Shown here: piece by piece, positions 3 through 46,742 of the stretch
Layout: each line of letters starts with the position of its first letter
Position numbering within the stretch: position 1 is the first letter of the stretch
DNA from: Paludibacteraceae bacterium
GTDB lineage: Bacteria > Bacteroidota > Bacteroidia > Bacteroidales > Paludibacteraceae
DNA length: 53,346 bases
NCBI GenBank assembly: GCA_017450435.1
Contig: JAFSTO010000025.1
Coordinates: 1-53,346, forward strand
Reading direction: 5' to 3'
Notes under the pieces: generated by a model
Seen by the model: only the letters and a program-made list of their open reading frames with translations
Databases searched by the model: none
What the model was told of the DNA's origin: nothing
Made by a program: the position numbers and the translations under genes

Positions 3-437
3 GAGGAACATACAGAGCTCGTTATGTCGCTCATCTTCGACGAAAGAGGTTATCTGACTGAACTTATTCTCGGCACCGGGATGCCGTCACAAGCAGCGGA
101 GCATAACCGTGCTCTTGCACCGCAGCGTAGCACAGAGAGTAACGACGAGGAAGATGGCAACGAGCGACGCTTCGCGGAGTACTACTCATTCACCATACGC
201 AGTCTCTCGCCAAACAGACAATACTACTACGTGAGACAGTCTCTCGCCGGTGAAGAAGTTATTGACGAGGAGCATGGTTCGTTCGAGACTCTCACCGACA
301 CGGAGACCGGGTTGGATGGAAGCATTGTACCGTATGACGAGCGCATACATAGTGACAAACAGCTCCGCGAGGGACAGATGCTTATCATTGCCCCTGATGG
401 CAAAACATACACCCCCGACGGAAAAGGATTATTTTGA
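3..437 (+). CDS. C-terminal part of a secreted modular protein (5' end outside window)
   Basis: The reading frame is open from the left edge, so this is the end of a larger protein; the first in-window ATG (24) is probably not its start. The visible part has a beta-rich, fibronectin-type-III-like stretch (YSFTIRSLSPNRQYYYVRQS, then a GSFETLTDT strand). It is followed by a short C-terminal tail (KQLREGQMLIIAPDGKTYTP) that matches, in pattern, the tails of five other exported proteins in this window. An acidic loop (NDEEDGNE) lies between. The function is not recognisable. By analogy with the other tail-bearing proteins, all of which have signal peptides, I infer an exported or surface protein. 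The last 66 nt of the tail region recur almost identically near 21.9 kb. Confidence 0.6.
   Translation, partial: EEHTELVMSLIFDERGYLTELILGTGMPSQAAEHNRALAPQRSTESNDEEDGNERRFAEYYSFTIRSLSPNRQYYYVRQSLAGEEVIDEEHGSFETLTDTETGLDGSIVPYDERIHSDKQLREGQMLIIAPDGKTYTPDGKGLF
357..422 (+). repeat. Tail-coding direct repeat, copy 1 (partner at 21868-21933)
   Basis: This 66-nt stretch encodes the C-terminal tail of the first protein and is repeated at 21868-21933 with only two differences that I can count by eye (64 of 66 identical). Here it is in frame with its gene. The second copy sits out of frame behind a TPR-gene remnant. Confidence 0.85.
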
Positions 438-8341: not shown

Positions 8342-11098
8342 ATGCAAAAAAAACTGCTAATTCTGAATATCTTTCTTCTGCTTATATCTTCTCTTTCTGC
8401 AGAAATTATTCGTGGTATTGTAATTGACGCGCAGACGCGCGAACCTCTTATCGGAGTAACAGTTTGTCTCAAAGAAGACGCTTCACATGGTACAGTGACC
8501 GACTTCGATGGTCATTTTTCTCTTAACGTTTCTTCAACAGATGCAGTAAAACTCAGTTTCTCATACGTTGGTTATGAGAGTATGGATCGTGTTGTCAAGC
8601 CTTCAGACGCGATGACGCGTATCCTGCTTATGCCTCATAATGAGATGCTTGACGAAGTCGTGGTATCAGCCGGCAGATTCGAGCAACGCCAGACGGACGT
8701 TACTGTATCAATGGAGGTTATCAAGCCTCAGGCTCTTCATACTCAGGCACCTACCGACCTTACCGCTACACTGCAAACATTACCCGGCATTGAAATCATC
8801 GACAAACAGCCGAGCATCCGAGGCGGTGGCGGATGGACATACAGCGTCGGTTCCCGATGTCAAGTGCTTATGGATGAAATGACAATACTTAATCCTAAAA
8901 CCGGCGAGATTAACTGGAACAATATTCCGCTTGAGAATATCGGCCAGGTGGAGGTTATCAAAGGTGCGTCGTCTGTGTTATACGGCTCGTCTGCATTGAA
9001 CGGCGTTATCAATGTGCGTACTCAGCGCCCCGGTTTAAAACCCGAAACAAAGGTAAGCGGATACGTGGGGGTGTATAACAACTATAAGAACTACAAATAC
9101 ACCGGCGCCCGCCTGCCCTTGTATTATGGTGCTGAGGGCTCACACTCGCGCCGTATAGGTAATTTCGATGTGTCAGGCGCGCTGAGCGGATTTAAGGATG
9201 AAGGCTACCGCCAGCAGAGTTTCAACGATCGCGTGCGACTCGGCGGCAACATGACATATCATGTGCCTAACCTCGATGCCGGCAAGTATATGTCGGCGGG
9301 TATAAACATGAACTACGTAGCTAACCGGTTTGGAGACTTTTTCATTTGGCGTAGCCCGAAAGACCCGATACACCCGTCTCCATTGACCAATATGGGGCGT
9401 AAGGAGCATAATTTTAATATTGACCCGTTCTTCAACTATGATGACTCGAATCGCGGTATCTCCCATAAGGTCCGTACACGATTCTATATGACGGCGGATA
9501 ATATTACAGCTCCGTCAGAGGGTATCAGCACCGAAGACCTCATCAAGTGGGGTGTCACAAGTTTTGACCTCGATAAGATAAAAGGTTATTACGACCAAAT
9601 AAAGGGATACACCGATGGCGGTGTCGATTTGAAGGATGCTTTGTTAGTGACCTTTAAAGATGTGGCTTTGCCGGTAATGAACGAGCAGTGGCTCGACGCT
9701 GTGGTTAATGGTATAGATTTGGTTAAAAACGGCCTCGGCTACACCGGCACAGTTGCAGAACTGCAAGATGCTGTGGCTTATGCAATGAACCTTTTGACAG
9801 ACCACACACCTACACGTCCGGAGCTTACCTATAACGGGTATATTGACTATCAGTTTGCCAAGCAGTGGGAGTCAGGTGTACGACTAACCACCGGTATCAA
9901 CTGGAACCATATAACCAACACTGCTAATATTACCGGAACTCATGAGACGGATAATATTGCCGCCTATCTGCAGTATGACCACCGTATAGCCGACCGCTTG
10001 TCGCTTAGTGCCGGCATGCGACTGGAGTACTATCGGATGGACTCATCCTTCAATGAGGCAAACATTCAGATAGGCAAATGGTTGTGCCCTGTCCGCCCTG
10101 TTTTTCGTGCGGGACTGAACTGGGAAATATACAAGGCCGGTTTCTTGCGTGCATCATTCGGACAAGGGTATCGTAACCCGTCTATTACCGAGAAGTTCGC
10201 TCGTAAGGACATAGGTGGTGTCGGCGTCTATCCTAATCACAAGATTGAAGCAGAGTCAGGATACAATGCAGAGATCGGTTACAAACAACTCTACAAACTC
10301 GGTCCGCTTGTCGGAACGCTTGATGTGGCGGCGTTCTACACCGAGTATCGCAACATGATTGAGTATCAGTTCGGACTTTTCCGCAACTCTGACTACACGA
10401 TGATTAACTCAATCACCGACGTGGTGGATGAGCTTCAGGGAATGATTGACAATATCAAAGCTACGAAATCGCTCAGTGGTGCAGGTATAGGTATCGGAGC
10501 ACAGTTTGTTAATGTCAACCGTGCGCGAATCTATGGCGCTGAAGTAAGCACCGCCGGACGCTTTGATATAATGAAGGATATGGCTCTTAACTATATGGTT
10601 GGCTATACATTCACTGAACCTGAGGACATGGACAACGATGCTCGTATTGCAGAAGAGGCCAATTACACCGACCCGTTGCAGATGAAAAACAAATCCAACG
10701 ACAGTAAGTACCTTAAGTATAGAAACAAACATTCGTTCAAAACGACATTGGACTACAGCTATAAATGGTTCTCGGTCGGTCTTAACATGATGTACCGCAG
10801 CAAAGTACTGGCTGTTGACTATCTGATGGTTGACGAGCGTGAGAAAAACTCTGCCGACCTGATGGACTATGTGAGAATGTTTGTCTTCGGCTATGAGGAC
10901 GGTCTTTCACTGCATGACTACTGGATGGAGCATAATAAAGGAGTATTCACAATGGATTTACGTTGTTCCGTACGTTTCAAGGAACATGCAGAAATGCTGT
11001 TTATCATCAACAACCTTCTCAATACTGAATACAGCTATCGTCCAATGGCGTTAGCTGCCCCACAAACCTTCGTTTGCAGACTGAATATCAACTTATAA
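8342..11098 (+). CDS. TonB-dependent outer-membrane receptor
   Basis: A 918-aa outer-membrane transporter. It has a signal peptide (about 1-20), a carboxypeptidase-regulatory-like domain (about 20-100: IRGIVIDAQTREPLIGVTV), a plug (about 115-225, with LQTLPGIEI, the D-E-M box and IEVIKGASSVLYGSSALNG-type residues), and a beta-barrel to the C-terminus. TBDR signatures near the end are INNLLNTEYSYRP and F-V-C-R-L-N-I-N-L. It lacks the SusC hallmark of a following SusD gene. Two helical insertions interrupt the barrel (about 397-492 and 686-715). It heads a four-gene operon with three tail-bearing secreted proteins, 10 nt before the next gene. The ligand is unknown; haem, a siderophore or a peptide/glycan are all possible. 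Confidence 0.9.
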   Translation: MQKKLLILNIFLLLISSLSAEIIRGIVIDAQTREPLIGVTVCLKEDASHGTVTDFDGHFSLNVSSTDAVKLSFSYVGYESMDRVVKPSDAMTRILLMPHNEMLDEVVVSAGRFEQRQTDVTVSMEVIKPQALHTQAPTDLTATLQTLPGIEIIDKQPSIRGGGGWTYSVGSRCQVLMDEMTILNPKTGEINWNNIPLENIGQVEVIKGASSVLYGSSALNGVINVRTQRPGLKPETKVSGYVGVYNNYKNYKYTGARLPLYYGAEGSHSRRIGNFDVSGALSGFKDEGYRQQSFNDRVRLGGNMTYHVPNLDAGKYMSAGINMNYVANRFGDFFIWRSPKDPIHPSPLTNMGRKEHNFNIDPFFNYDDSNRGISHKVRTRFYMTADNITAPSEGISTEDLIKWGVTSFDLDKIKGYYDQIKGYTDGGVDLKDALLVTFKDVALPVMNEQWLDAVVNGIDLVKNGLGYTGTVAELQDAVAYAMNLLTDHTPTRPELTYNGYIDYQFAKQWESGVRLTTGINWNHITNTANITGTHETDNIAAYLQYDHRIADRLSLSAGMRLEYYRMDSSFNEANIQIGKWLCPVRPVFRAGLNWEIYKAGFLRASFGQGYRNPSITEKFARKDIGGVGVYPNHKIEAESGYNAEIGYKQLYKLGPLVGTLDVAAFYTEYRNMIEYQFGLFRNSDYTMINSITDVVDELQGMIDNIKATKSLSGAGIGIGAQFVNVNRARIYGAEVSTAGRFDIMKDMALNYMVGYTFTEPEDMDNDARIAEEANYTDPLQMKNKSNDSKYLKYRNKHSFKTTLDYSYKWFSVGLNMMYRSKVLAVDYLMVDEREKNSADLMDYVRMFVFGYEDGLSLHDYWMEHNKGVFTMDLRCSVRFKEHAEMLFIINNLLNTEYSYRPMALAAPQTFVCRLNINL

Positions 11099-11108
11099 TT
11101 TTTTTCGC

Positions 11109-13487
11109 ATGAAAAGATTTTTTACTCTTGTTTTATTTACTACAACGCTCGTTGCCTCAGCATTAGCTGTAACAGTTAATGATGTGGCGGGTACCTTCAA
11201 GGGTAGTCTTAACATTGGCGGCACAAACTACCCGAACAAAAAGGTGTATATCTTGCCGGGTGAGGCAAACGGCACCATCACTTTTGTTCTTCCTGATTTT
11301 ATCTACAATTCAGCCTCATTAGGCGATATTGTATTGGTAAACATCCCAATGGACGCAACCGGACGTCTCACGCTTGACAACTCCACGCTTTATATCAAAG
11401 CCATCTCGGAACGTGCTACGGTATCGGTACTCAACGGCTTGGTTGATGGAAGTGTCACCTACAACTCCGTTGTTTCCAACTCCTCTGCACAGGTGTTGTT
11501 GTCAATAGCTGCGCCTTCCCTTCCTGAACCTATCCTTGTGCTTTTCACCGGAAATAAGGTAACTTCTGACAATTATGCTATCACCAATGGCGGCTTTGAG
11601 GGCAGCTGGTCGAATAAGGAGCCTCAGGGCTGGCATTCATTCAGCTCGGCAACCGGCACTTTTGCGTCAATGGCAGGTGGAGATGATCAGTTTAAGCAGT
11701 CGTCTGACAAACGTCCCGGTTCGACAGGGTCGCAATCGGTAATGCTGGCTTCTAATATGATTGCCGGTGTCAAAGCCAATGGTAACTGCACTAACGGACA
11801 AATCAATGCAGGTTCAATGTCAGCGGACGATGCGTCGGGCAACTACAACTTCTCTGACCCGTCCAACAGCGGGTACAATACCCCGTTTGTCGGAAATCCG
11901 GACTCGCTTGTTTTTTGGGCAAAGTACATTCCGGCAGACAAGAACCCGTCCAATTCTGTTAATCAAGCTCGTGCACACGCTGTGGTCACAACAGCTGCCA
12001 GATATCAGGATCCCGAGAACACAAGCTATGCCTCTGTGAAGATTGCCGATGCCGCAATCAACTACTCTGCTACTTCCTCAATGGGTTGGCAAAGGCTATC
12101 TGCTCCATTTTCTTATACATCGCTCGACCCGTCCGGCGCTGCATATATTCTTGTTACATTCACAACTAACTACCAGCCGGGTGGCGGCTCTACTTATTCA
12201 ACCGGTGGTCTTTTCAATAAGACAGTTTATCCGGATAACCTATATCTTGATGATGTAGAGATGATTTACAACCACTCCCTTACTTCGCTAAAGATGAATG
12301 GTGCAAGTGTATCATTTTCCGGTGGTCATGCCACTACGCAAAATGTCTTCAGCGATAGCGATTATAGCTTTGTCGTCACCAACAATGGCAAAGGTGCCAA
12401 GTCTTTTGTAGGATATGATGTGCCGAACAATAAGGTATGTGTGTATGTAGTGGGCGACAACTACTCTCAGAACAATAGTTCATATAGTCTTTACACATTG
12501 CAGATGGCTGAGCCCGTTAAGGATACCGAGTTCGCTTATTCTGCCACAACATGTAGCGGTGAGCTGTATTCCGATAATCTCTTCAACGGTTTGAAAGACG
12601 CCGGTACGTATAACAAAACCATTCCTAACACTCAAGGCGGCGATTCGCTTGTTACTCTTACTCTGACCGTTCTGCCTGCATATTCAGATACGACAAGGTC
12701 GGTAATATGCGAGGGAGACACATATCTGTGGTGTGGTAAGACCTATGAAAACCTCGCTCCCGGCTTACACACAGATACTGTCAAGCTTAGCACCATTGCC
12801 GGTTGCGACTCTCTGCAGGTGCTTCAGCTTCAGGTGCTGCCGGCCTGGAGGTCAGAGGAAAAGAGATATGTTAACGAGGCCAACCTTGATTGGCACGGCA
12901 AGCACATACAAGACCTGCCGGTATCAACAGAGCCTTATCTCTTCTATGACAGCCTTACTGCGGCTAACGGATGCGATTCAATATATATTCTTCGGCTGTT
13001 TGTTTCGTCCATACCTGTCACTTATGGTGCCTACAATGCCATAATATGTGAGGGTGAAGATATAACTTTCGATGGCGTCACATACAAAGAAGCCTTTGAA
13101 GGAGATATCCATATCGCCGAGCAAAACTGCTACGGTGGTGACTCCGTGGTTCATCTAACGGTAACGGTTCTGCCCTCGTACACTATTGATGAGTACGATA
13201 CAATCATTGTCGGTGATACACGCACATGGGAAGGCTGGAACCTCAGCAATCTGCCTGTCGGTAATAGAATGTTGTATGCTTCGTATTACAGCATCAACGA
13301 CTGCGACTCAACTCTTGTTCTTCACCTTACAGTACAACAGATGCCGGTCACTGTAGCTCTGGATGACCACAATGTAAGCGATGCTCATGTAGTTAAGATA
13401 ATTCGCAACGGACACCTCTATATCATTCGCAGGGATGATGAGGCAATGTATAATGTTTTAGGAATAAAAATTAAAAATCGACAATAA
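11109..13487 (+). CDS. Secreted modular protein: calycin-like + PCMD-like + five 'CDS' repeats + conserved tail
   Basis: A 792-aa exported protein with a signal peptide (about 1-20). Residues about 22-150 resemble the Bacteroidota calycin-like barrel (VAGTFKGSLNIGG, TITFVLPDFIYNSASLGDI). Residues about 155-385 resemble the PCMD (putative carbohydrate metabolism) domain, opening with NGGFEGSWSNKEPQGWHSF. Residues about 475-760 are five repeats of about 55 residues ending in G-C-D-S or G-G-D-S followed by a L-x-L-x-V strand. The last 30 residues are the shared tail (KIIRNGHLYIIRR...YNVLGIKI). The next gene repeats the first two domains. Encoded right after the TonB receptor, it is probably a surface partner (ligand capture or adhesion). 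Carbohydrate activity is not shown. Confidence 0.8.
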   Translation: MKRFFTLVLFTTTLVASALAVTVNDVAGTFKGSLNIGGTNYPNKKVYILPGEANGTITFVLPDFIYNSASLGDIVLVNIPMDATGRLTLDNSTLYIKAISERATVSVLNGLVDGSVTYNSVVSNSSAQVLLSIAAPSLPEPILVLFTGNKVTSDNYAITNGGFEGSWSNKEPQGWHSFSSATGTFASMAGGDDQFKQSSDKRPGSTGSQSVMLASNMIAGVKANGNCTNGQINAGSMSADDASGNYNFSDPSNSGYNTPFVGNPDSLVFWAKYIPADKNPSNSVNQARAHAVVTTAARYQDPENTSYASVKIADAAINYSATSSMGWQRLSAPFSYTSLDPSGAAYILVTFTTNYQPGGGSTYSTGGLFNKTVYPDNLYLDDVEMIYNHSLTSLKMNGASVSFSGGHATTQNVFSDSDYSFVVTNNGKGAKSFVGYDVPNNKVCVYVVGDNYSQNNSSYSLYTLQMAEPVKDTEFAYSATTCSGELYSDNLFNGLKDAGTYNKTIPNTQGGDSLVTLTLTVLPAYSDTTRSVICEGDTYLWCGKTYENLAPGLHTDTVKLSTIAGCDSLQVLQLQVLPAWRSEEKRYVNEANLDWHGKHIQDLPVSTEPYLFYDSLTAANGCDSIYILRLFVSSIPVTYGAYNAIICEGEDITFDGVTYKEAFEGDIHIAEQNCYGGDSVVHLTVTVLPSYTIDEYDTIIVGDTRTWEGWNLSNLPVGNRMLYASYYSINDCDSTLVLHLTVQQMPVTVALDDHNVSDAHVVKIIRNGHLYIIRRDDEAMYNVLGIKIKNRQ

Positions 13488-13490
13488 ACT

Positions 13491-15044
13491 ATGAAAAAAA
13501 TCTTTGTTTCAATTATTGCCGGCCTGATGGTTTCGGCTGAACTAATGGCAGTGTCTGTAAAGGACATCTGCGGTCAGTATGATGGCAATCTGAATATTGG
13601 TGGTACACCATATCCCGATAAGTCTGTATATCTGCTTCCCGGTGTAGTAGATGGAACGGTTACGTTTGTTTTGCCGGATTTCATATTCAATGCCGGCAAA
13701 CTGGGCAATATCGTTTTGCCTAATATTCCTATGGACGCCAATGGTAAACTGACTCTTGAAAACGCCACACTGTATTTGGACTCAATCTCTGAGCGAGCCA
13801 CAATCACCATTCTAAACGGACTTGAGGACGGCGGCACTGTGTATAACTCTGTTATATCTACAACAGAAGCACAGGTGTTACTTTCTATTGAAGCCCAGTC
13901 TCTTTTGGAGCCCATCTTGGTGTTATTTAACGGTGCTGCTGCCAAAAGCAACAACTACGCCGTTGCCAACGGAGGTTTCGAGGGTGCTTGGACCAATAAT
14001 GAACCGCAAGGGTGGCACTCATTCTCATCTGCCACAGGAACGATGGTTGATTTTGTGAAGAATAATTCCTATCAGTTCATTCAATCGTCTGAAGTACGTC
14101 CTGGCTCGAAGGAAGCACATAGTGCCATGCTTTCGTCCAACATGCTTCTCGGCGTCAAGGCTAACGGCAACTGCACTAACGGACAAATCAATGCCGGCTC
14201 GACGACAGCATCGGACGGCGCTAATAACTATAACTTCTCAGCTCCTGAAAACACAGGATTTAACACACCTTTCAACGGACGTCCGGACTCGCTTGTCTTT
14301 TGGGCAAAGTACCTTCCTGCCGACCGCAATGCGGCAAACGAGGTGAATAAAGCCAGAGTAAGCTCGGTTATCACCACTGCAGACCGCTATCAAGACCCTG
14401 AAGTGGAGGATTATTCGAATGTCAAAATCGGGCATGCCACACTCAACTATGCCGCTACATCTGCTATGGGCTGGCAGCGTATTGCTGTTCCTTTCGAATA
14501 TGCAGAGACTAACAAGGCAAAGCAACCCGCCTACATCCTTACCACTTTTACCACAAACATGGTTCCGGGTGGCGGCTCATCATATTCAACAGGCGGTTCT
14601 TTCTCAAAGACAAACGTGCTTGACACCCTTTTGCTTGATGATGTAGAAATGGTGTATAATCGTAATCTACAGTCATTCAAACGTGATGCCGAGGTTCTTA
14701 ACTTCGCCGGACATGTAGCTACAATTGCCGACAATTACTGCGACGATTGCGCCAAGTATGCAGCTGAGGGTAATGGTGTTTCAGCGCAGACCTTCATCGC
14801 TTTTGATGCTACGCACCAATGCGTGTTTATCTACGTTATAGCAGACGACTACGCTCAGACTGGCGAGTATAGTCTCTATCGTGTTGACTTCGCTGATAGT
14901 GTAACCGATGACCTGCTGCCGCTTAATTCTGCTGTTGAGAATGTTTCTGCCGGACAGTCGTTCGAGAAAGTGATTATCAACGGTCAACTCTTTATCCGTC
15001 GTGGAGATACTTTGTTTAACATAACGGGCGCACGCCTACAATGA
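13491..15044 (+). CDS. Secreted paralogue: calycin-like + PCMD-like + conserved tail
   Basis: A 517-aa exported protein with a signal peptide (about 1-20), and a tandem paralogue of the preceding gene. The same calycin-like domain (ICGQYDGNLNIGG, VTFVLPDFIFNAGKLGNI) and PCMD-like domain (NGGFEGAWTNNEPQGWHSF; the VKANGNCTNGQINAGS block is identical) fill residues about 20-390. It lacks the five 'CDS' repeats of its neighbour: a linker of about 100 residues leads straight to the tail (KVIINGQLFIRRGDTLFNIT). It starts 3 nt after the preceding stop, and its own stop overlaps the next start, so translation is probably coupled. The duplication with domain loss suggests different surface reach of similar binding modules (inference). 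Confidence 0.8.
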   Translation: MKKIFVSIIAGLMVSAELMAVSVKDICGQYDGNLNIGGTPYPDKSVYLLPGVVDGTVTFVLPDFIFNAGKLGNIVLPNIPMDANGKLTLENATLYLDSISERATITILNGLEDGGTVYNSVISTTEAQVLLSIEAQSLLEPILVLFNGAAAKSNNYAVANGGFEGAWTNNEPQGWHSFSSATGTMVDFVKNNSYQFIQSSEVRPGSKEAHSAMLSSNMLLGVKANGNCTNGQINAGSTTASDGANNYNFSAPENTGFNTPFNGRPDSLVFWAKYLPADRNAANEVNKARVSSVITTADRYQDPEVEDYSNVKIGHATLNYAATSAMGWQRIAVPFEYAETNKAKQPAYILTTFTTNMVPGGGSSYSTGGSFSKTNVLDTLLLDDVEMVYNRNLQSFKRDAEVLNFAGHVATIADNYCDDCAKYAAEGNGVSAQTFIAFDATHQCVFIYVIADDYAQTGEYSLYRVDFADSVTDDLLPLNSAVENVSAGQSFEKVIINGQLFIRRGDTLFNITGARLQ

Positions 15045-16897
15045 TTATGAAACGTTTATTCTTACTTATTGTGCCGCTGACACTATCGCTCTCCGTTGCG
15101 GCACAGACCTACAAAAACGGGACATGGTACTCGCTCTATGATGACTCTGAGCATACCATGAACACTCAAGGTGACTATGAGACAGGAGGAGTATTCGCTC
15201 CTACCGCCGGAAAACTCAATGTCAAATGGAAATACGAGTGGATTGACTGGTTGGGATTTGCAAGAAAAATTGACACTGATGTACTTGAATCTTCCAATGG
15301 TGGCAGTTCTACTAAGAATGTCGGCTCGCTGAAAGAAAACACATCCAACAACAGCAACACCACTGAGTCTTTTAACCTGAGCACAAACATCAACTGGATT
15401 AAATTCAATCGCAGTGGCGTTCCGACACACAAAGTCCATGTGTATCACATTGATATACCTCTCAAAAAGCATATCCTTCTTGCGTCAGGCGACTATGGTA
15501 CAACCTCGGCAACACATGACTTCGGCGGGGTAGAGGTTCTCTCTATTTCCGAACCTTACATGGTCAACTTACGCTCTTTCCTTTCAGCCGGTGACATTAC
15601 TGTTACATCATCTAATCCTGAACTGTTCCACATCGGTTCGGCTGATAATACCGAGCCTATCGTTTATGCAGTCGGCAATGACGCTTGTGCATCGGCTAAT
15701 GGTACAGCAGCCGCAGCCGGTGGCTCAACGCTGGGTAATATTGCTAACTACTCGTTCCCTGTGTACTTCACCCCCCAAGTTGGTGGCGAATATGAGGCAA
15801 CCGTCACTCTTACCGACGGCACATCCACTGCTACTCTGACAGTGAAGGCTACTGCACTCCGATTCGACCAGACGATAACATGGGACGAGGAGAAGACGGA
15901 TATGCTTTCAAACGACACTATCAAGGCAGCGACAGCATCATCTAAGTTGCCTGTAAACTACACCTTCGAACCGGAGGGGATTGTGGCTTTTGCAGACGGA
16001 CAGTTCACAATTATAGGCGATGGACGTGTTACTATCACAGCCGTGCAGGAGGGTAACGGTTTATACAATTCGTCAAATACTATTGTAAAGACTTTTGATA
16101 TTCATCCGGCTGTGTCGAAATATTCCTATACCGCCAAAATTTGCGAAAGTGATGTTTATTCCGATGACAATTTTGCCAACTTGACTGAGTCCGGAGAATA
16201 TGTTGATACTATTCCTACTGTCTTTGGCGGTGATTCAATCATTACCTTGACCCTCTCTGTAAACAAATTGTTTGCGTCAGAAGAGACACGTAGCGTGTTC
16301 TATGTAGGCACAGATGAGCTATGGAACGGCATCAACCTTGGTGCACTGCCTCTTGGTGACACCACGCTTGTTGTTGAGTATGCCTCAGCATCAGGTTGCG
16401 ACTCCACCTACACTCTTCACCTTGCTATTGTAGAGCGTCCAACCACCTATGGAGCTGACACTTTGTATATTTGTGCAGGTGAGAAAGTAGAGTATGAGGG
16501 TGTTGTCTATCGTCGTCCGACGGAGAAGGAAATATTACTTGCAGGACGTAACTGCTATGGTGGAGACTCTATTGTCAGTCTCGTTGTATATGTACGTCCG
16601 GTAATGAAAATGGCGGAAGAGCAGACGATAACAGCCGGTGATGTGTATGACTGGCACGACTACGACCTTAGCATCATACCTGCCGGCGACACCGTCTTAG
16701 TGGCTCAATACACATCTGTATATGGTTGCGATTCGATTTACACCCTGCATCTGTCAGTCGTTAGTTCAATGACGGTGGACGTACACAACACTGACGCTGA
16801 AAAAATGGAGGAGCAACAGAAGTTCTTCCACAACGGACACATGTATATACGCCGCGAGGGAAAAGTTTATAATGTCACAGGCGTGCGTGTCGATTGA
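15041..16897 (+). CDS. Secreted Ig-like protein with four 'CDS' repeats and conserved tail
   Basis: A 618-aa exported protein. ATG at 15041 overlaps the previous stop (ATGA); ATG at 15047 gives a cleaner signal peptide (MKRLFLLIVPLTLSLSVAAQ) and is equally likely. After a unique N-terminal region (to about 170) come beta-sandwich segments. One is like those with YSFPVYFTPQVGGEYEATVT, and one like bacterial Ig domains (QTITWDEE, SSKLPVNYTFEPEG). Four repeats follow (about 357-585), homologous to those in the first secreted protein of the operon, each ending in C-D-S or G-G-D-S. The tail (KFFHNGHMYIRREGKVYNVT) closes it. It is last in the operon and is followed by a terminator. Likely a surface or extracellular binding protein. 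Confidence 0.78.
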   Translation: MIMKRLFLLIVPLTLSLSVAAQTYKNGTWYSLYDDSEHTMNTQGDYETGGVFAPTAGKLNVKWKYEWIDWLGFARKIDTDVLESSNGGSSTKNVGSLKENTSNNSNTTESFNLSTNINWIKFNRSGVPTHKVHVYHIDIPLKKHILLASGDYGTTSATHDFGGVEVLSISEPYMVNLRSFLSAGDITVTSSNPELFHIGSADNTEPIVYAVGNDACASANGTAAAAGGSTLGNIANYSFPVYFTPQVGGEYEATVTLTDGTSTATLTVKATALRFDQTITWDEEKTDMLSNDTIKAATASSKLPVNYTFEPEGIVAFADGQFTIIGDGRVTITAVQEGNGLYNSSNTIVKTFDIHPAVSKYSYTAKICESDVYSDDNFANLTESGEYVDTIPTVFGGDSIITLTLSVNKLFASEETRSVFYVGTDELWNGINLGALPLGDTTLVVEYASASGCDSTYTLHLAIVERPTTYGADTLYICAGEKVEYEGVVYRRPTEKEILLAGRNCYGGDSIVSLVVYVRPVMKMAEEQTITAGDVYDWHDYDLSIIPAGDTVLVAQYTSVYGCDSIYTLHLSVVSSMTVDVHNTDAEKMEEQQKFFHNGHMYIRREGKVYNVTGVRVD

Positions 16898-17219: not shown

Positions 17220-19871
17220 TTATTTGACAAATCGTAGTTCCACTCGTCTGTTTCGCTGTTTACCTTCTTCGGTATTATTATCTGCAACGGGCTTTGATGC
17301 ACCATAACCTTTAGCTGTGAGCCGGTCTGCATCACAGCCTTGACGAATGAGGAAATCACGCACTGAGTCAGCACGTTGTTGTGACAGTTTGCGATTACGT
17401 GCCGCATCACCTGACGAGTCTGTATGACCACTGATTTCTACGTTGAAGTTATGCATTTTGATAATTTCCGCCACTCGTAGCAGCTCATTTTCAGACTGTG
17501 GCAACAGTTCCCACTCGTTCACGGGGAAGAACAGGTTATTGACTTGTACTGCTGTACCCTCTTCCAGCATCTGTTTGTAGGAGACGAGCTGCAACTCCTT
17601 GTTGATTGTTATCATCTCTGTTATGTCGCGAAGATCGATGTTATTGGAAAGAGGATAATACCTGTCGTCGTCAATATAGTAGCCGTATAGTCTGCCAAGC
17701 GGCAAGACAAGGAAGAACGAGCCATCGGAGGCATCAGTCTCCGACTCACCTATCTCTGAGTGGCTGTCAAGGTCTTCCCAGCGAATCTTCACTTTCACAG
17801 GAAGACTGTCGCCGTCAATCACTCTGCCGGATATGGTAGCCACTGCGTTCGGACGCATACTTACCGGCATATCCACGTTATATATGTCCTTTCCATCAGA
17901 AAAATATGCTGATTTACCATCTGTGGTAAAACGGTATCCCCAGTCGCTCTCTGCAGTATTCAGTTGCCTGCCGATATTCACCGGCTCGCTCCATTCCGTC
18001 CATGAGTCGTCGTTTAGACGAGTGGACTTGAAAACATCCATATTGCCAAGTGTGCCGTGACCGGAAGAGCTGAAATAAAGGGTCTTCATATCCGGATGAA
18101 GGAACGGAGAGCGGTCGGAATATGAGGTATTGATGGTCGGACCAAGGTCGAACGGAACACCCCAGTTACCGACGGAATCAAGCAGAGAAACGAAAATATT
18201 GACTGAAGTGTCTCTTTCGTGTGCAGCCGGCACTTGTGCTGAGAATAACATAGCCTTGCCATCGCTCGTTATCATAGCATCACACTGCCAGCGGGAGATA
18301 TTGATGTTATCAGGTAGCGGGGTTAGTGCACTCCAACCATCTGCTGTCCGATTGGTGGTCATGAGCTTGCCGTTGCTGAACACGATGAGTGAGGCTCCGT
18401 TGACACTCACTGATTGTACACCTTCATTGCCATTGACGGTATTGAGTTGTTCTAACAAATGTGCATGTCCCCACTCGCCTGTTGTGTCTTTGCGGCTGAT
18501 AAAGATATCTTCGCCGCCGAGGCTATCGTCGCGCTTACTACCTACAAAATAGATGGTTTGGCCATCGGCTGAAGTAACGGGCAGGTATTCTTTGCCATCG
18601 ATGGTGTTGATGCTGTCGTTCAAACGTTGTTTGACAATAGGCTCTTCCTCTCTGCGGAGTGTTGACATCAGACATTCATACTTGCTGTCTCCGGCAAAGA
18701 CGTCAGCAAACGGCTCGCAGTAGCTGATACATGCTTCCCAATCTTGTGCTTTGACTGACTCGGCTATTTTAGTAACTAACACATCGTATGCAATATTATA
18801 TGGGGCAGCAATACGAATAAAGTCTGTGGAGGACATTTCCTTCTTGACGAAAAACGCTCTGGCGGCGTCAATAACCTCTTCATCGTGTTTAGTCAGTTCT
18901 GTGAATGTGGAGTTAGGATATAAAAGATAGAGTTTCTGGATGTCGCGTGACAGTCCTGTTGAGGTGTGCTGGCGGTGCAGAACAAGCCAACACGAATCTC
19001 GCATTGGTTGCGCGAAATTGCTATATCCGTATTGGGCGATAGAGTAGTTAAGCGTCTTCAGCGCAAGCCGCATCAGAGTCCGCTGTGTCAGAGCGGCCGG
19101 AATAACCGAATTCCGACTAATCTTTGCTGCAGATTGATATTCCTGCCAGTTGCTGACAGTTATCTCATTTTCCTTATATGGCTGAGGACGTAGTAAATTA
19201 AGGGCAGCAAGCAGTCTCGTGCTCTCAGGATATCTGTTGATATATTCGGTGAGTGCGGCAGGTGTTCCGGCTGAGACCGCATCTTTATATGCCATATCAT
19301 AGATACGGTTGCGTGCAGTCGGTACCTGATCGGCCTTCGGGTAGCTGTTGATAAAAGACTCGTAAGCAGCTATAGTATTGACGGCTGAAGCATCACGAAA
19401 AGCTGCTTTATTACGACGCAAAATCATCTGTGACTCTACATCCTTATCACAACGTGTATAGGTGTTGAGAAAATGAATATAGCCCTCTGTTGTTTCGTCG
19501 TTCTCCGCTACCGTTCGTGCAGCGGAGCAGCAGGAACGAATAGCTGTTTTAAAGAGTTGCGGAGTAAAACCTTTCTTCTCCAACTTGGTTTTCTCTTTCT
19601 CCGTGGCAGATGCCAGACTATCGGCACCACGGCAGGCGAAATTATAAGCCCGCTCTATGTCGCGACCGGGATTGCTTGCCGACAAGTAAAGCTGTGAAGC
19701 GGCATACAGATATGCAATGTCGCCAGGAGACTTGCTCAGTTTTTTGGTGATATCTTTTTCCGCTTTGGCAAAATCACCACGGGTAATCTGTTTTTGACAC
19801 GGGTAATCAAAATCATCTGCTATGATAGAAACAGAAATGAATAGTGAGAAAAATAGAAGAAGACGTTTCAT
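17220..19871 (-). CDS. OmpA-family envelope protein with beta-propeller repeats (PorE-like layout)
   Basis: An 883-aa exported protein. The longest frame begins at 19949, but the ATG at 19871 gives a proper signal peptide (MKRLLLFFSLFISVSII) and a promoter sits just upstream. Order of domains: helical repeats of TPR type (about 20-400), PD40/WD40-like propeller blades (about 424-662: ADGQTIYFVGSK, MKTLYFSSSGHG, DGKSAYFSDGKD), a carboxypeptidase-regulatory-like domain (about 675-750: ATISGRVIDGDSLPV), and a C-terminal OmpA peptidoglycan-binding domain (about 770-883: ISGHTDSSGDAARNRKLSQQ, GYGASKPV, RRVELRF). This order matches T9SS component PorE and its relatives, which tie the secretion machine to peptidoglycan. 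Unlike PorE it shows no lipobox. A PorE-type role is inference. Confidence 0.82.
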   Translation of the reverse strand: MKRLLLFFSLFISVSIIADDFDYPCQKQITRGDFAKAEKDITKKLSKSPGDIAYLYAASQLYLSASNPGRDIERAYNFACRGADSLASATEKEKTKLEKKGFTPQLFKTAIRSCCSAARTVAENDETTEGYIHFLNTYTRCDKDVESQMILRRNKAAFRDASAVNTIAAYESFINSYPKADQVPTARNRIYDMAYKDAVSAGTPAALTEYINRYPESTRLLAALNLLRPQPYKENEITVSNWQEYQSAAKISRNSVIPAALTQRTLMRLALKTLNYSIAQYGYSNFAQPMRDSCWLVLHRQHTSTGLSRDIQKLYLLYPNSTFTELTKHDEEVIDAARAFFVKKEMSSTDFIRIAAPYNIAYDVLVTKIAESVKAQDWEACISYCEPFADVFAGDSKYECLMSTLRREEEPIVKQRLNDSINTIDGKEYLPVTSADGQTIYFVGSKRDDSLGGEDIFISRKDTTGEWGHAHLLEQLNTVNGNEGVQSVSVNGASLIVFSNGKLMTTNRTADGWSALTPLPDNINISRWQCDAMITSDGKAMLFSAQVPAAHERDTSVNIFVSLLDSVGNWGVPFDLGPTINTSYSDRSPFLHPDMKTLYFSSSGHGTLGNMDVFKSTRLNDDSWTEWSEPVNIGRQLNTAESDWGYRFTTDGKSAYFSDGKDIYNVDMPVSMRPNAVATISGRVIDGDSLPVKVKIRWEDLDSHSEIGESETDASDGSFFLVLPLGRLYGYYIDDDRYYPLSNNIDLRDITEMITINKELQLVSYKQMLEEGTAVQVNNLFFPVNEWELLPQSENELLRVAEIIKMHNFNVEISGHTDSSGDAARNRKLSQQRADSVRDFLIRQGCDADRLTAKGYGASKPVADNNTEEGKQRNRRVELRFVK

Positions 19872-19888
19872 GGTATTAGGATTTTTGC

Positions 19889-19896
19889 ACAAAAGT
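19889..19896 (-). promoter_or_regulatory. -7 promoter box for the OmpA-family gene
   Basis: Minus-strand TACTTTTG, 17 nt upstream of the ATG at 19871. Its position upstream of codon 27 of the longest frame supports the shorter start. Confidence 0.5.
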
Positions 19897-20042
19897 ACAC
19901 ATTTTTGCTTATTTACACAAGAAAAATCGAAAAAACATATATTACTCATAACTTATCCTTTATTTCTTATTAGTCATCAAGCGTCTTTGTCACGCGCTCG
20001 CTTGTGTCAGTGCCGAGTTTAACAAAAAAAAAGACAAAAGCT

Positions 20043-21723: not shown

Positions 21724-21742
21724 GTTTCCGTTTACACACAAC

Positions 21743-21933
21743 TTGACAATTTGTAATCAAAGTATTAAACTTCATTCGCAAGAACCGAGTTATTATGTCA
21801 TAAAAGCACAAGCATTCGAGTTTTTACACCAATATGACTCTGCTCTTTTGTACGCTTCTTATGTTATAAACAGCTCCGCGAGGGACAGGTGCTTATCATT
21901 GCCCCTGATGGCAAAACATACACACCCGACGGA
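21743..21933 (+). pseudogene. Relict: TPR-gene fragment joined to a displaced tail-coding sequence
   Basis: Within the 317-nt stretch between nadB and frdB there are two pieces of former genes. About 21743-21867 translates (frame of 21743) to a TPR-like segment with EPSYYVIKAQAFEFLHQYDS and ALLYASYVI, with no credible start. From 21868 the DNA is nearly identical (64 of 66 nt) to 357-422, encoding KQLREGQVLIIAPDGKTYTP in a different frame. The junction is therefore out of frame, and a TGA precedes the tail in its own frame (21835-21837). It looks like debris from recombination between tail-bearing genes. Not expected to make a working protein. Confidence 0.75.
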
Positions 21934-21982
21934 CTTTCACAAATTCTTACAGCCATCCATTCGCCGATAGTGTACAAAAAAA

Positions 21983-31716: not shown

Positions 31717-33375
31717 TTAGAAATCGGGAACCTGCAACCCTTCTATTGTATATAATCGTCCATCCGGAAGGCGAATGAACATTCGATTGTTAATCATTAC
31801 TTTGTCTGCCTTTGTGATAGATGGTGTGCGTGGGTTGTTAAGGTCGGTTGTTGTCGAAGGTGCGAAGATGGGTTCGAAAACGGCATCTTGGTTCACCTGA
31901 ATGTGTCGAGGATTGGTCCGGTCGCCATCGCTCCACTGCGCAAATGTCATTCCGTCGTCGGGGGTGGCGGTGAGTGTCACCCACTCGTCGCAGGCATAAC
32001 TGCCTGCACCGGAGACTGTTCCGCCTTCTGCGCCGGCGACCGTGATAGTGGGGCGTTCTTTTCGGAACTTATATGCCGCCCAACTGTTGTCAGCAGCGTA
32101 TGCCAGTGAGTCCACTGAACAGCCAATCAGCACATTATACCGGGAATAGAGACCGGTATAGTTATACTGATACCATCTATAGAAGCATTGCGCACCCAAT
32201 TGGGGAGGAGTGGCAGCATCAGAGATGATGGTGCGCAGCGAGTCGCAGTCATAAAACGCCATTTTTCCCACTTGCTCACACCCCTCCGGCAGTCGTATCG
32301 TTTGCACATTGGGGAGGTGGAAGAAGCCGCCTTCCTCAATTGTGCGGAGCGAGTCGGACAGTGTGACGGAACTAAGTCCCAGACAACCGGAGAAGGCATA
32401 CTTGCCGATTGTGCGCGTTGTGTCCGGCAACACAAGGTCGGTCACACGTTGACCGTCAACATATAAATAATTATTGTATAGCGGACTGGCCTCATCATGC
32501 TCGCAAGTGATGGCTGCATAGGCAGCAAGGTCTTCCACGTGTATCTGTATGCTGTCGGTGCCGGAAAAGCCGATTAGTCCCACATATCGGAGCGTACGGG
32601 GGATAGTTAACTCTTTGATTCCCCTTAAAGCCTGCAGACCGCCGGTCATGATGCTGTCAAGCATAGGCGGTAACTCCAGTTCCGTCAGGAGCGGGCAGGC
32701 ACGGAAAGCATACTCGCCAATCACACGAACCGATTGACCCATACGCACATAGCGGAGCGAATCCATCTGGTAGCATAGATTGTTAGGCACGAAGAGGACA
32801 GAGTCACCGATGAACAAGCTATCAATGTGCGTGCTCCATTTGGCAGTCGAACCGTTATATCCCAATGCGGAAGCCGACCAGCCTCCTCGGCAGTTCTTGG
32901 CGTTGAAGTGTACGACCTTCAGTTTGCCGGCGTTCGCAAAGAGTCCGTTCGGCACGGATTGTACATCTTCGCCGAAAACGACTTCGCGCAAGTTTAACGG
33001 GTTTAGCCAATTGCTTTTGATGGTGCATTGAATAGCATTATAGTATATTTTCGTGAGACTATGGCATCCTTCAAATGCTCGCTCGCCTATTTGGGTAATA
33101 GTTGTAGGTATAACCACGGATTCCACATCACTATATCTCAGTGCCCAATCACCGATTTCGGTAACTGTATATAGCACGTTGTTATGTGTTATCTGCTCAG
33201 GTATAACGACATGACCGACATACGCCGAAGTATTCAGATAGTTCTTCTGAGTGACAATTGCTGTTTGGGTAGAACTATTGAGGTTATAATAAATGCCATC
33301 AATCTCTACGTCATAGGCGAGTGCCAAGAGATTGGCACCCAAGCAGAGACATAGTATGATAAATCTATTCTTCAT
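31717..33375 (-). CDS. BspA-like leucine-rich-repeat secreted protein with conserved tail
   Basis: A 552-aa exported protein. The frame opens at 33417, overlapping rmuC, but the ATG at 33375 gives a proper signal peptide (MKNRFIILCLCLGANLLALA). Residues about 50-400 are BspA/LRR_5-type repeats (VTEIGDWALRYSDVESVVIP, ITQIGERAFEGCHSLTKIYY). These are followed by a divergent InlB-like repeat (about 435-500: GGTVSGAGSYACDEWVTLTA...FAQWSDGD) and the shared tail (KVMINNRMFIRLPDGRLYTI). BspA-type proteins mediate host or bacterial adhesion. The gene lies between rmuC and frdA on the same strand, inside the otherwise conserved frd locus. Confidence 0.85.
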   Translation of the reverse strand: MKNRFIILCLCLGANLLALAYDVEIDGIYYNLNSSTQTAIVTQKNYLNTSAYVGHVVIPEQITHNNVLYTVTEIGDWALRYSDVESVVIPTTITQIGERAFEGCHSLTKIYYNAIQCTIKSNWLNPLNLREVVFGEDVQSVPNGLFANAGKLKVVHFNAKNCRGGWSASALGYNGSTAKWSTHIDSLFIGDSVLFVPNNLCYQMDSLRYVRMGQSVRVIGEYAFRACPLLTELELPPMLDSIMTGGLQALRGIKELTIPRTLRYVGLIGFSGTDSIQIHVEDLAAYAAITCEHDEASPLYNNYLYVDGQRVTDLVLPDTTRTIGKYAFSGCLGLSSVTLSDSLRTIEEGGFFHLPNVQTIRLPEGCEQVGKMAFYDCDSLRTIISDAATPPQLGAQCFYRWYQYNYTGLYSRYNVLIGCSVDSLAYAADNSWAAYKFRKERPTITVAGAEGGTVSGAGSYACDEWVTLTATPDDGMTFAQWSDGDRTNPRHIQVNQDAVFEPIFAPSTTTDLNNPRTPSITKADKVMINNRMFIRLPDGRLYTIEGLQVPDF

Positions 33376-35920: not shown

Positions 35921-35948
35921 CGAATTATTTTGTAATTTGGCTTTCTTT

Positions 35949-36965
35949 GTGAAGTTCGGAAAATATATATTGTCTTTTTTGTTCTTGTCGGTCAGTGTTT
36001 GCATGTTTGGTCAGGCGGGGCAGAGTGTGTTTTCTTTTTTGAGTCTTCCATACTCCGCCCGGCATAATGCGCATGGTGGAGAGAATGTAAGTCTTGGGCT
36101 TGACGGGGATATCTCTTTCGCGCTGAACAACCCTGCGCTGCTATCCTCAATGACGCATAACAGTCTGTCAATGAGTTATGCGTATTATGGCTCAGCCATG
36201 AATTTTGCGGGGGTGGCATACGGGCATAATTGGGGCGATAATTACGGAGGCGTGGCTGTGCATTATTTGGATTACGGCAAGTTCAAGTACTCCGATGAGT
36301 ACGGTGCTCTGAGTGGAACTACATTCTCGGCAAGAGACTTCTTGGTGGATATTATCTATGCCCGGCAGCTTGGTCCGATGTTTCGTGTAGGCGCTGCCCT
36401 TAAGCCCGTTTACTCGGCGTATGAGTCGTACCATTCGTTTGCGCTCGGCGCCGATGTGGGCGGATATTTCATGCTGCCGGACTCAACGTTGCAAATAGGT
36501 CTGACTTTGCAGAACATAGGCTGGCAACTGAAGGGTTTCTACTCAGAAGAGTCAGGGCAGAAATTGGATATGATGCCGCTGAACCTGCAAATGGGAATAT
36601 CATACAAGCTAAAGCACGCACCGCTCAGGTTCTCAATGACTATTCATAACATGCAGCGTTGGAATCTGAATTACGGTATGCAAACCGTCACTCCTGTCAA
36701 GTGGTATGATATGATGTTCCGTCATACTGTGTGGGCTGTGGATATTATTCCTAAGAAAGACGTCTTCTGGCTCACATTGAGCTATAATCATCGCCGTCGG
36801 ATGGAAATGCAGCTGAAGGAACAGCGATCATTAGCCGGTTTCGCTTTAGGCGTAGGGCTGCATATTAAAAGCGTAAGGGTGGGGTTTGCTTTGTCGCAGT
36901 ACACGAGGAGCAATTTTACATATCAGGCAACACTGGCGCTTGATATAAATGAATATATAAAATAA
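35949..36965 (+). CDS. porQ: Type IX secretion system protein PorQ
   Basis: An outer-membrane FadL-like beta-barrel protein of the type IX secretion system; with PorZ and PorV it belongs to the attachment complex that finishes and anchors cargo. The 338-aa form begins at GTG 35949 (the frame extends to a TTG at 35937). Signal peptide MKFGKYILSFLFLSVSVCMF, then the family opening FSFLSLPYSARHNAHGGENV, LGLDGDISFALNNPALL, and repeated amphipathic strands to LALDINEYIK. The order porQ-cmk is found in other Bacteroidota, which supports the call. Its presence implies that this organism exports proteins by T9SS. Confidence 0.9.
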   Translation: MKFGKYILSFLFLSVSVCMFGQAGQSVFSFLSLPYSARHNAHGGENVSLGLDGDISFALNNPALLSSMTHNSLSMSYAYYGSAMNFAGVAYGHNWGDNYGGVAVHYLDYGKFKYSDEYGALSGTTFSARDFLVDIIYARQLGPMFRVGAALKPVYSAYESYHSFALGADVGGYFMLPDSTLQIGLTLQNIGWQLKGFYSEESGQKLDMMPLNLQMGISYKLKHAPLRFSMTIHNMQRWNLNYGMQTVTPVKWYDMMFRHTVWAVDIIPKKDVFWLTLSYNHRRRMEMQLKEQRSLAGFALGVGLHIKSVRVGFALSQYTRSNFTYQATLALDINEYIK

Positions 36966-45677: not shown

Positions 45678-46742
45678 ATGATGAAGAAACTATTATTTTT
45701 TATTCCCTTTTTAACCTTTAGTTTTGTTTGTTTTATTCCCGCCTCAGCTCACACAGAGCAGGTTCAGGTTGCTAATGAAGTGGAAGGTGACGAGTATCCT
45801 ATTGTTGTCCAAGGCACGGGTTTTACTACAGATATGCCGGTACAAGCAGCCGGAGGCAAGGAAATCACTTTTACGGTTACGCTTGAGCAAAACTATGTTA
45901 TTAAGACAGTTTCTGCTTGGTATGACGGATTATACGGTAGTGGAAATATTACTGTGACCAATGTGTCCGGCACAACCTATAAATTCACCATGCCTGAGGA
46001 GGGAGAGTTGTATTACGCAGTCAACAACGACTATGGTTTAGACCCTGATTCCGTTACCGTTAAAATAGAAACTGAGCAGCAATCGTCTAACCCGCGTGTT
46101 ATAATCGCAGACAGCCGTATATCTTCATCTTCTGCCGATGCTGTGGCAGGTCAGACGGTTACTGTCACTATCCGTCCGGCTGACAACGACCGCATGACAC
46201 GTCTTACTGTTAACGGACAGAACATTAACTTTTCGTCAATCGTGGAAAATCTCAATGAGACTCTTAATGCTGACGAGGCCTACGATTGGCAATTTACTTA
46301 CACATATACCTTTACAATGCCCAACCAAGACGTTGCAGTGTCAGCAGCCTATGAGACTACCTTTGGTATCATCACCGAGTATGCCACCAACTGCACTATC
46401 GACGTACCACACCGCGCAGCGGTCGGAGAAGCGGTGACTGTTAAGGTGAACCCGGACGCCGGATATACGTGGGAAGGCGATATTTCCATACATGACTCCA
46501 ACTATTTGCTTTATGTGGAGAATCCGGATGCTTTGGATGAAAATAATCAGTTCGTTATGCCTGACGACCTGTATTCAACTGATTTGGATTATATCTACAT
46601 AGGAGCAATTTGCGTTGAAGACCTTGCTAACGGGCTCGACAATGCCGGGTCAACGACAGAGGCTGTTAAGTTTATTGACAACGGCAGGCTGCTCATCCGT
46701 CATAACGGACGTACATTTACTACCACAGGTGTAGTTATGTAA
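45678..46742 (+). CDS. Secreted beta-repeat protein with conserved C-terminal tail
   Basis: A 354-aa exported protein. ATG 45678 and ATG 45681 are both possible; the signal peptide is about MKKLLFFIPFLTFSFVCFIP, cleaved near ASA. The body has three beta-rich repeats that each end in an F-T-M-P-type strand (KFTMPEEGELYYAV, TFTMPNQDVAVSAAY, QFVMPDDLYST). They resemble divergent InlB-like/Bacteroides-Listeria repeats with V-T-V-K-V-N-P-D-A-G-Y strands. The last 27 residues are the shared tail (KFIDNGRLLIRHNGRTFTTT). No function can be assigned; it is probably a surface or extracellular protein. It stands alone between the serpin gene and the lysine operon. Confidence 0.75.
   Translation: MMKKLLFFIPFLTFSFVCFIPASAHTEQVQVANEVEGDEYPIVVQGTGFTTDMPVQAAGGKEITFTVTLEQNYVIKTVSAWYDGLYGSGNITVTNVSGTTYKFTMPEEGELYYAVNNDYGLDPDSVTVKIETEQQSSNPRVIIADSRISSSSADAVAGQTVTVTIRPADNDRMTRLTVNGQNINFSSIVENLNETLNADEAYDWQFTYTYTFTMPNQDVAVSAAYETTFGIITEYATNCTIDVPHRAAVGEAVTVKVNPDAGYTWEGDISIHDSNYLLYVENPDALDENNQFVMPDDLYSTDLDYIYIGAICVEDLANGLDNAGSTTEAVKFIDNGRLLIRHNGRTFTTTGVVM

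Follow-up and report, generated by a model that had tools for sequence, protein, structure and literature searches.

The tail in the window and in its genome

The window, by which we mean the whole stretch of DNA that was analysed, comprises positions 1 to 53,346 of contig JAFSTO010000025.1 of a Paludibacteraceae bacterium (assembly GCA_017450435.1). Our subject is a short C-terminal element, here called the tail, which recurs at the ends of six proteins encoded in the window and which we consider a candidate signal of the type IX secretion system (T9SS). All six tails that a preliminary description of this DNA had reported were found in the sequence. Three of the genes follow one another on the plus strand and encode an exported protein of 792 aa with a Calycin-like N-terminal domain (11109..13487; tail at 13389..13475, E 1.3e-13), an exported protein of 517 aa with a Calycin-like domain that scores 29.1 against a Pfam cut-off of 30 (13491..15044; tail at 14961..15041, E 6.6e-13), and an exported protein of 618 aa (15041..16897; tail at 16814..16894, E 3.6e-15). 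On the same strand are a partial protein at 3-437, whose gene runs past the window edge (tail at 351..434, E 5e-13), and an exported protein of 354 aa with InlB B-repeat-like domains (45678..46742; tail at 46662..46739, E 5.6e-13). The sixth gene, for an exported BspA-type leucine-rich repeat (LRR) protein of 552 aa (31717..33375; tail at 31726..31809, E 1.2e-14), had been listed without a strand; it lies on the minus strand, and the plus-strand frame is full of stops. In each case the tail stands at the end of the protein, and all six tails are seeds of the search profile to which these E values refer.

The bodies of these proteins had been taken to share nothing. They are, however, not all unrelated, as the proteins at 11109 and 13491 have the Calycin-like N-terminus in common, and those at 11109 and 15041 a C-terminal repeat region that is 40% identical. 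A seventh copy had been noted as stray DNA at 21.9 kb, and this is indeed present as tail-coding DNA without a gene body (21863..21933, plus strand), 94% identical to 352-422. The reported porQ gene of the T9SS is likewise in place (35937..36965, plus strand; NF033711, 293 bits against a cut-off of 220).

A profile built from the six window tails (A1) was searched against the 2.65-Mb genome at E<=10 and returned 71 matches, the weakest of them at E 0.41. In 70 of the 71, a stop codon follows 0-12 residues after the tail, a placement that chance would not give; the single exception is the stray DNA at 21863-21933. We also scanned 167 proteins, comprising tail proteins and carriers of the type A C-terminal domain (CTD) of T9SS cargo (TIGR04183, PF18962), with the tail profile at E<=0.01. 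This gave 70 C-terminal matches, no internal match among the 167 proteins, and no tail on any of the 97 type A proteins scanned. The position is retained in other species. In 380 kb of the roughly 1.6 Mb of one of them (G313), a selection consisting mostly of contigs with known tails plus the PorU contig, the tail lies 0-7 residues from the stop in each of the 23 frames that carry it, and the tail is C-terminal in 44 of the 45 loci from other genomes that were returned by the order and family surveys described below. The preliminary description had asked whether matches are always C-terminal, and with the exceptions just given they are.

All 70 tails fit the pattern K-x(2,4)-[NDEK][GND]-x-[LIVM]-x-[ILV]-x(4,9)-[YF][NTDS]-xx-G, which was composed after inspection of these same 70 sequences. 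Counted from the Lys to the C-terminus, their length is 24-30 residues, with a mode of 25 (38/70), and 3-9 residues follow the last Gly. At the first turn, 43 of the 70 have NG and 21 have DG. That the tails are shorter than a CTD was therefore correctly noted at the outset, but the absence of a Lys-rich closing end does not hold as a general rule, as K or R occurs within the final three residues of 54 of the 70. Signal peptides, which had been ascribed to the complete window proteins, are recognised genome-wide by a crude hydrophobicity rule in 61 of 70 tail proteins. Of the nine that fail, five are truncated at the end of a contig or of the window, one is an orphan frame and three have doubtful starts, and in two of these three a plausible signal peptide can be made out by eye. 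Across the genome, linkage clustering divides the 70 bodies into 30 groups, one of which has 35 members. Pfam scans of the bodies, which took in 36 of the 70 proteins (the six of the window and 30 others), identify PL8, pectinesterase, amylase, M6 peptidase, nuclease and LRR domains among them.

For comparison with named sorting domains, we used a set of 66 of the 70 tails (A2), from which one orphan, one near-duplicate and two tails with odd ends were omitted. In the comparison that the preliminary description had called for, neither these 66 tails nor the six window proteins match any sorting-domain model of NCBIfam and Pfam, TIGR04183, PF18962 and TIGR04131 included, at E<=10, a threshold to be read with the fact that the HMMER filters remove most matches above about E 0.1. 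The library scan of the 66 tails gave scattered unrelated models only, the best at E 0.0023. One of the 30 further tail proteins (L001:151-3324, minus strand, 1058 aa) does contain a FlgD_ig/Por_Secre_tail-like stretch, with 27.1 bits against the PF18962 cut-off of 27; this stretch is internal (residues 441-508) and lies away from the C-terminus.

With an alignment of the six window tails as input, AlphaFold2 predicts, in a model of 34 residues, that the tail at 16814-16894 adopts a three-stranded beta-meander (mean pLDDT 86.8, pTM 0.53). The predicted strands span residues 8-13, 16-21 and 24-27 of 34, and the conserved NG/DG and (D/N)G are located at the two turns. A 199-residue model based on two sequences was rejected (mean pLDDT 32). 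When the tail was compared with profiles of the type A CTD, only the Y-x-x-x-G-x-x-V stretch known as Motif B aligned, over 10-13 columns, with an hhalign score of 18.5 as against a maximum of 14.9 in 200 column shuffles. Of the genome's own 26 TIGR04183 proteins, 17 were read, and the type A profile A3 uses 13 of these 17; the larger CTD profile uses 96 of the 97 type A proteins read.

Tail-coding DNA is also found apart from full genes. In addition to the stray copy in the window, one of the 70 tails, on contig C3:4421 (L003:229-306), is an orphan frame without a full gene body, and its DNA is 82% identical to the tail at 352-422. The presence of this second stretch suggests that tail-coding DNA may be copied as a unit. 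A short open frame at 21695-21970, upstream of and across the stray tail, looks tetratricopeptide repeat-like by eye, and the stray may thus lie among the remains of a disrupted gene. Just downstream of the first tail gene, at 437-645, short repeats (AGAGACGGTA...TACCGTCTCT) occur at three places, and the DNA after the orphan tail on contig C3 begins like this repeat stretch. As to the surroundings of the tail gene cluster, a TonB-dependent receptor-like gene is followed directly by the two Calycin-like tail proteins and the 618-aa tail protein (8342-16897), which is possibly an uptake locus. Adjoining the cluster on the minus strand (17220-19949) is a gene for an OmpA-type protein that resembles PorE and CHU_0125, both below cut-off.

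Exchange of the tail with type A domains between species

As partners for comparison with the 70 tail proteins, we took 80 TIGR04183-matching proteins from two sister species (G344 and G354). By blastp (E<=1e-5), 33 of the 70 have a relative among the 80 type A proteins, and 30 of the 33 best partners are over the TIGR04183 cut-off. Eighteen of the pairs are reciprocal best matches, and in 15 of these the partner is over the cut-off. The similarity reaches >=30% identity over >=200 aa for 15 of the 70 tail proteins, and in 10 of these 15 the homology stops <=60 aa from the C-terminus of the tail protein, 7 of the 10 partners being over the cut-off. In six pairs, the homology ends at the junction in both proteins, 30-58 residues short of the end of the tail protein and 62-126 short of that of its partner. 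The best of the pairs shows 57% identity over 944 aa, up to a point beyond which 30 residues of the tail protein and 68 of its partner remain. Two local alignments run into the tail.

The exchange can also be followed in gene order. In a collinear row found on contig C11 of the window genome (G000) and on contig C16 of G344, three of the four genes end in a tail in the former and in a type A CTD in the latter, while the fourth is type A in both. The residues before the two kinds of ending show a common tendency as well: a linker of the form hydrophobic-D-[NDE]-[VILA] is found ahead of 15 of the 70 tails (33 of 1340 in random body segments) and ahead of 11 of the 80 type A CTDs (35 of 750 in the corresponding comparison). 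Because related proteins carry the tail in one species and the type A CTD in another, the notion that the tail is a T9SS sorting signal is well supported by comparison, and with it the variant T9SS signal that the preliminary description had proposed.

An exchange of tails between neighbouring genes is not claimed. The tail identity of neighbours without body homology is 0.48 (20 pairs), as compared with 0.44 (1522 pairs), and the permutation p is 0.07 (5000 draws).

Distribution of the tail and of the secretion machinery

The window genome has SprA, PorU, PorV and, in the window, PorQ, together with 26 TIGR04183 matches at E<=0.001. SprA, PorU and PorV are present in all eight sampled genomes of the genus, and in all eight species PorU has a type-A-like end as judged by eye. 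The old domain has been retained in this part of the machine, while a large share of the cargo has a changed signal. The eight genomes contain from 9 to at least 66 tail matches each; in five of them the best 66 candidate tails were scored, so that their counts are lower bounds. The tail outnumbers the type A CTD in six of the eight. In G313, 60 tails stand against 3 TIGR04183 matches, with SprA, PorU and PorV retained, and the only type-A-like ends in its 380 kb are those of PorU and of one weak frame.

In the family sample, the tail occurs in 37 of 120 genomes. Outside the genus of the window, four other genera reach counts of up to 14, and the rest have 0-3. The order sample contains nine tail-positive genomes out of 247, seven with a single match and one (G192) with an internal match that is probably false. 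In the phylum sample, where the best 20 candidates per genome were scored, only 1 of 395 genomes, the window's own, is positive, and the possibility of a wide phylum-level tag was rejected on these numbers.

SprA was found in 115 of the 120 family genomes and in 233 of the 247 order genomes. Among the tail-positive genomes, it is present in 9 of 9 in the order sample, the doubtful G192 included, and in 35 of 37 in the family sample; none of the 14 SprA-negative genomes of the order sample has the tail. The two tail-positive genomes in which SprA was not found, G275 (nine tails, 31 type A CTDs) and G324 (one tail, at least 44 type A CTDs), contain type A CTDs and have SprA-positive congeners, which makes an assembly gap likely. 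The check suggested beforehand, whether the tail is limited to T9SS-positive genomes, thus gave these two exceptions in the two samples, with SprA as the marker.

The takeover by the tail is graded along a SprA tree of 20 genomes, the root of which is for drawing only and which has two long branches. Genera with 14 and 12 tails lie outside the genus of the window. Next come G344 with 11 tails and G354 with 9, for which the survey gave 37 and 41 type A CTDs, respectively, and 39 and 41 with all candidates scored. These are followed by the window genome, with at least 66 tails and 26 type A CTDs, and then by five species with 38 to at least 66 tails and 3-14 type A CTDs.

In the eight species (L314-L321), PorV distance divided by SprA distance gives 0.59 between the two tail-poor species and 0.88-1.33 in all other pairs. 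We do not claim a speed-up or co-adaptation of PorV, since a single tail-poor pair is too few.

The tail as a probable secretion signal

Comparison of sequences across these genomes suggests that the tail is a C-terminal type IX secretion signal of ∼25 residues, which has largely replaced the type A CTD of 70-100 residues in most of the species sampled from one genus, which probably belongs to the Paludibacteraceae. We put the probability of this reading at about 0.83. Most likely, the tail would be a miniaturised T9SS signal, a new variant that has its nearest counterpart in the short CTDs of Prevotella intermedia. In such a scheme, the protein would be exported by Sec by way of its N-terminal signal peptide, which is visible in the sequence, and the tail would fold into the predicted three-stranded beta-meander with its NG/DG and (D/N)G turns. 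In the periplasm, the tail would be taken by the SprA/PorV translocon in place of the CTD, as the swaps and the retained machinery suggest, and PorU would then remove the tail, or the tail would leave with PorV. The pocket for the CTD, according to published structures (PMC10994853), is plastic and mainly hydrophobic, and is built by PorV loops and SprA.

Several observations weigh against this reading. The export of tail cargo by the T9SS is itself deduced from comparison. For 37 of the 70 tail proteins, a type A relative was not found in G344 or G354, and among the 33 matches, the weaker ones are confined to common domains or repeats and so are not clear orthologs. In the collinear row, one partner (G344:C16:116758) has 20.5 bits, below the TIGR04183 cut-off of 23. 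Nearly all sampled genomes have SprA, and its co-occurrence with the tail therefore proves little alone. Over eight genomes, in five of which scoring was confined to 66 candidate tails, the numbers of tails and of type A CTDs show no significant rank correlation (rho -0.48, p 0.23). A smooth inverse correlation was rejected for this reason, and the case rests instead on the swaps and the tree. The hhalign probability of the tail against the type A CTD is 21-36%, which is a weak sequence likeness. Finally, the last residues of the CTD, which comprise Motifs D-E, have been found necessary in published work, and the tail contains no recognisable D or E. On so weak a likeness, the tail may be a CTD reduced to a hairpin and Motif B, in which Motifs D and E can no longer be recognised.

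In the usual description, T9SS signals are folded domains of 70-100 residues. Like the type A CTD (TIGR04183, PF18962), the tail forms the C-terminal end of Sec-exported, related cargo with signal peptides, in a genome that has SprA, PorU and PorV. It follows a similar linker tendency, contains a Motif-B-like Y-[ND]-x-x-G-x-x-V, and has a basic residue near the end in 54 of 70 cases. It differs in its length of 24-30 rather than 70-100 residues, in its three predicted strands as opposed to a seven-stranded sandwich with Motifs A-E, and in having no profile match and no recognisable Motifs A, D and E. Motif B of the type A CTD is placed by published models in the loop deepest in PorV (PMC11969387). 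The closest likeness is with the short CTDs of P. intermedia (PMC11969387), which likewise form a short signal beside long CTDs in one genome, with a predicted single three-stranded sheet, a signal peptide and a C-terminal position. These short CTDs have 43-55 residues and Motifs B-D-E, whereas the tail, compared with them by the published description, has 24-30 residues and ends after the Motif-B-like stretch. According to the same paper, P. intermedia is the only species of the phylum for which CTDs of both lengths have been reported, and it has 48 short and 32 long ones, whereas short signals are far more numerous than long ones in six of the eight species sampled here.

A precedent for a short signal is provided by HBP35, the last 22 residues of which are enough for GFP secretion according to a review (PMC10202324), so that some 22 residues can suffice for T9SS export. 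This fragment, however, is an artificial truncation that contains Motifs D and E (cited in PMC10202324 and PMC11969387), whereas the tail resembles Motif B. The type B CTD (TIGR04131, PF13585) is comparable as an alternative C-terminal T9SS signal, but it has about 100 residues, five motifs and PorP/SprF shuttles (PMC10202324), and the tail has no match to its profile.

How far the tail stands apart from the short CTDs is a separate matter from its being a T9SS signal. We give even odds to its being a signal class of its own, the smallest natural one among those that we found reported, in which a meander of ∼25 residues with a Motif-B-like end would work without Motifs D and E and would have swept most of the cargo of one genus, with PorU keeping the old CTD and PorV adapting. 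No description of the tail was found in the open-access literature. The tail could also be a further shortened member of the P. intermedia group of short type A CTDs (43-55 aa, one three-stranded sheet, Motifs B, D and E), which we regard as a tentative and somewhat less probable assignment. The predicted fold of the tail also has three strands, its end resembles Motif B, and the short CTDs are modelled as binding PorV like the long ones (PMC11969387); the tail, however, is 24-30 aa long, and its resemblance to type A CTDs does not extend beyond Motif B, the last Gly being followed by only 3-9 residues.

A role outside the T9SS appears improbable to us. In that case, the tail would hold proteins at the periplasmic side of the outer membrane, or would address them to some other machine for export or anchoring, to which former T9SS cargo would have been rerouted. 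Such a pathway would agree with the link to the T9SS being comparative and not direct, with the want of a match to any named CTD profile, and with the near confinement of the tail to one family (9/247 order genomes and 1/395 phylum genomes). It sits poorly with G313, which keeps SprA, PorU and PorV with only 3 TIGR04183 matches beside its 60 tails, as the T9SS there would be left with few type A substrates (no search for type B cargo was made). Moreover, the changed genes remain in a collinear row with type A cargo, and the recognised bodies of tail proteins are extracellular enzymes and adhesins. That the tails are functionless, decayed remnants of type A CTDs might be suggested by their shortness, by the likeness of their last part to Motif B and by the body-less tail DNA at 21.9 kb and on contig C3, but we consider it very unlikely indeed. 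The tight pattern holds in all 70 tails across 30 body clusters and recurs in other species and genera, and decay would not converge on one consensus nor expand to 60 copies.

The minimum signal needed by the T9SS translocon is unsettled, with Motifs D and E on one side and Motif B on the other. A natural tag of ∼25 residues on some 70 proteins, exchanged with a full CTD, provides a ready set of natural swap experiments, and the tail is also a compact tag for fusion tests. If the tail is a T9SS signal, predictions of the secretome from TIGR04183 and PF18962 would miss most T9SS cargo in these species, and for G313 such a prediction would list 3 proteins where about 60 more are likely.

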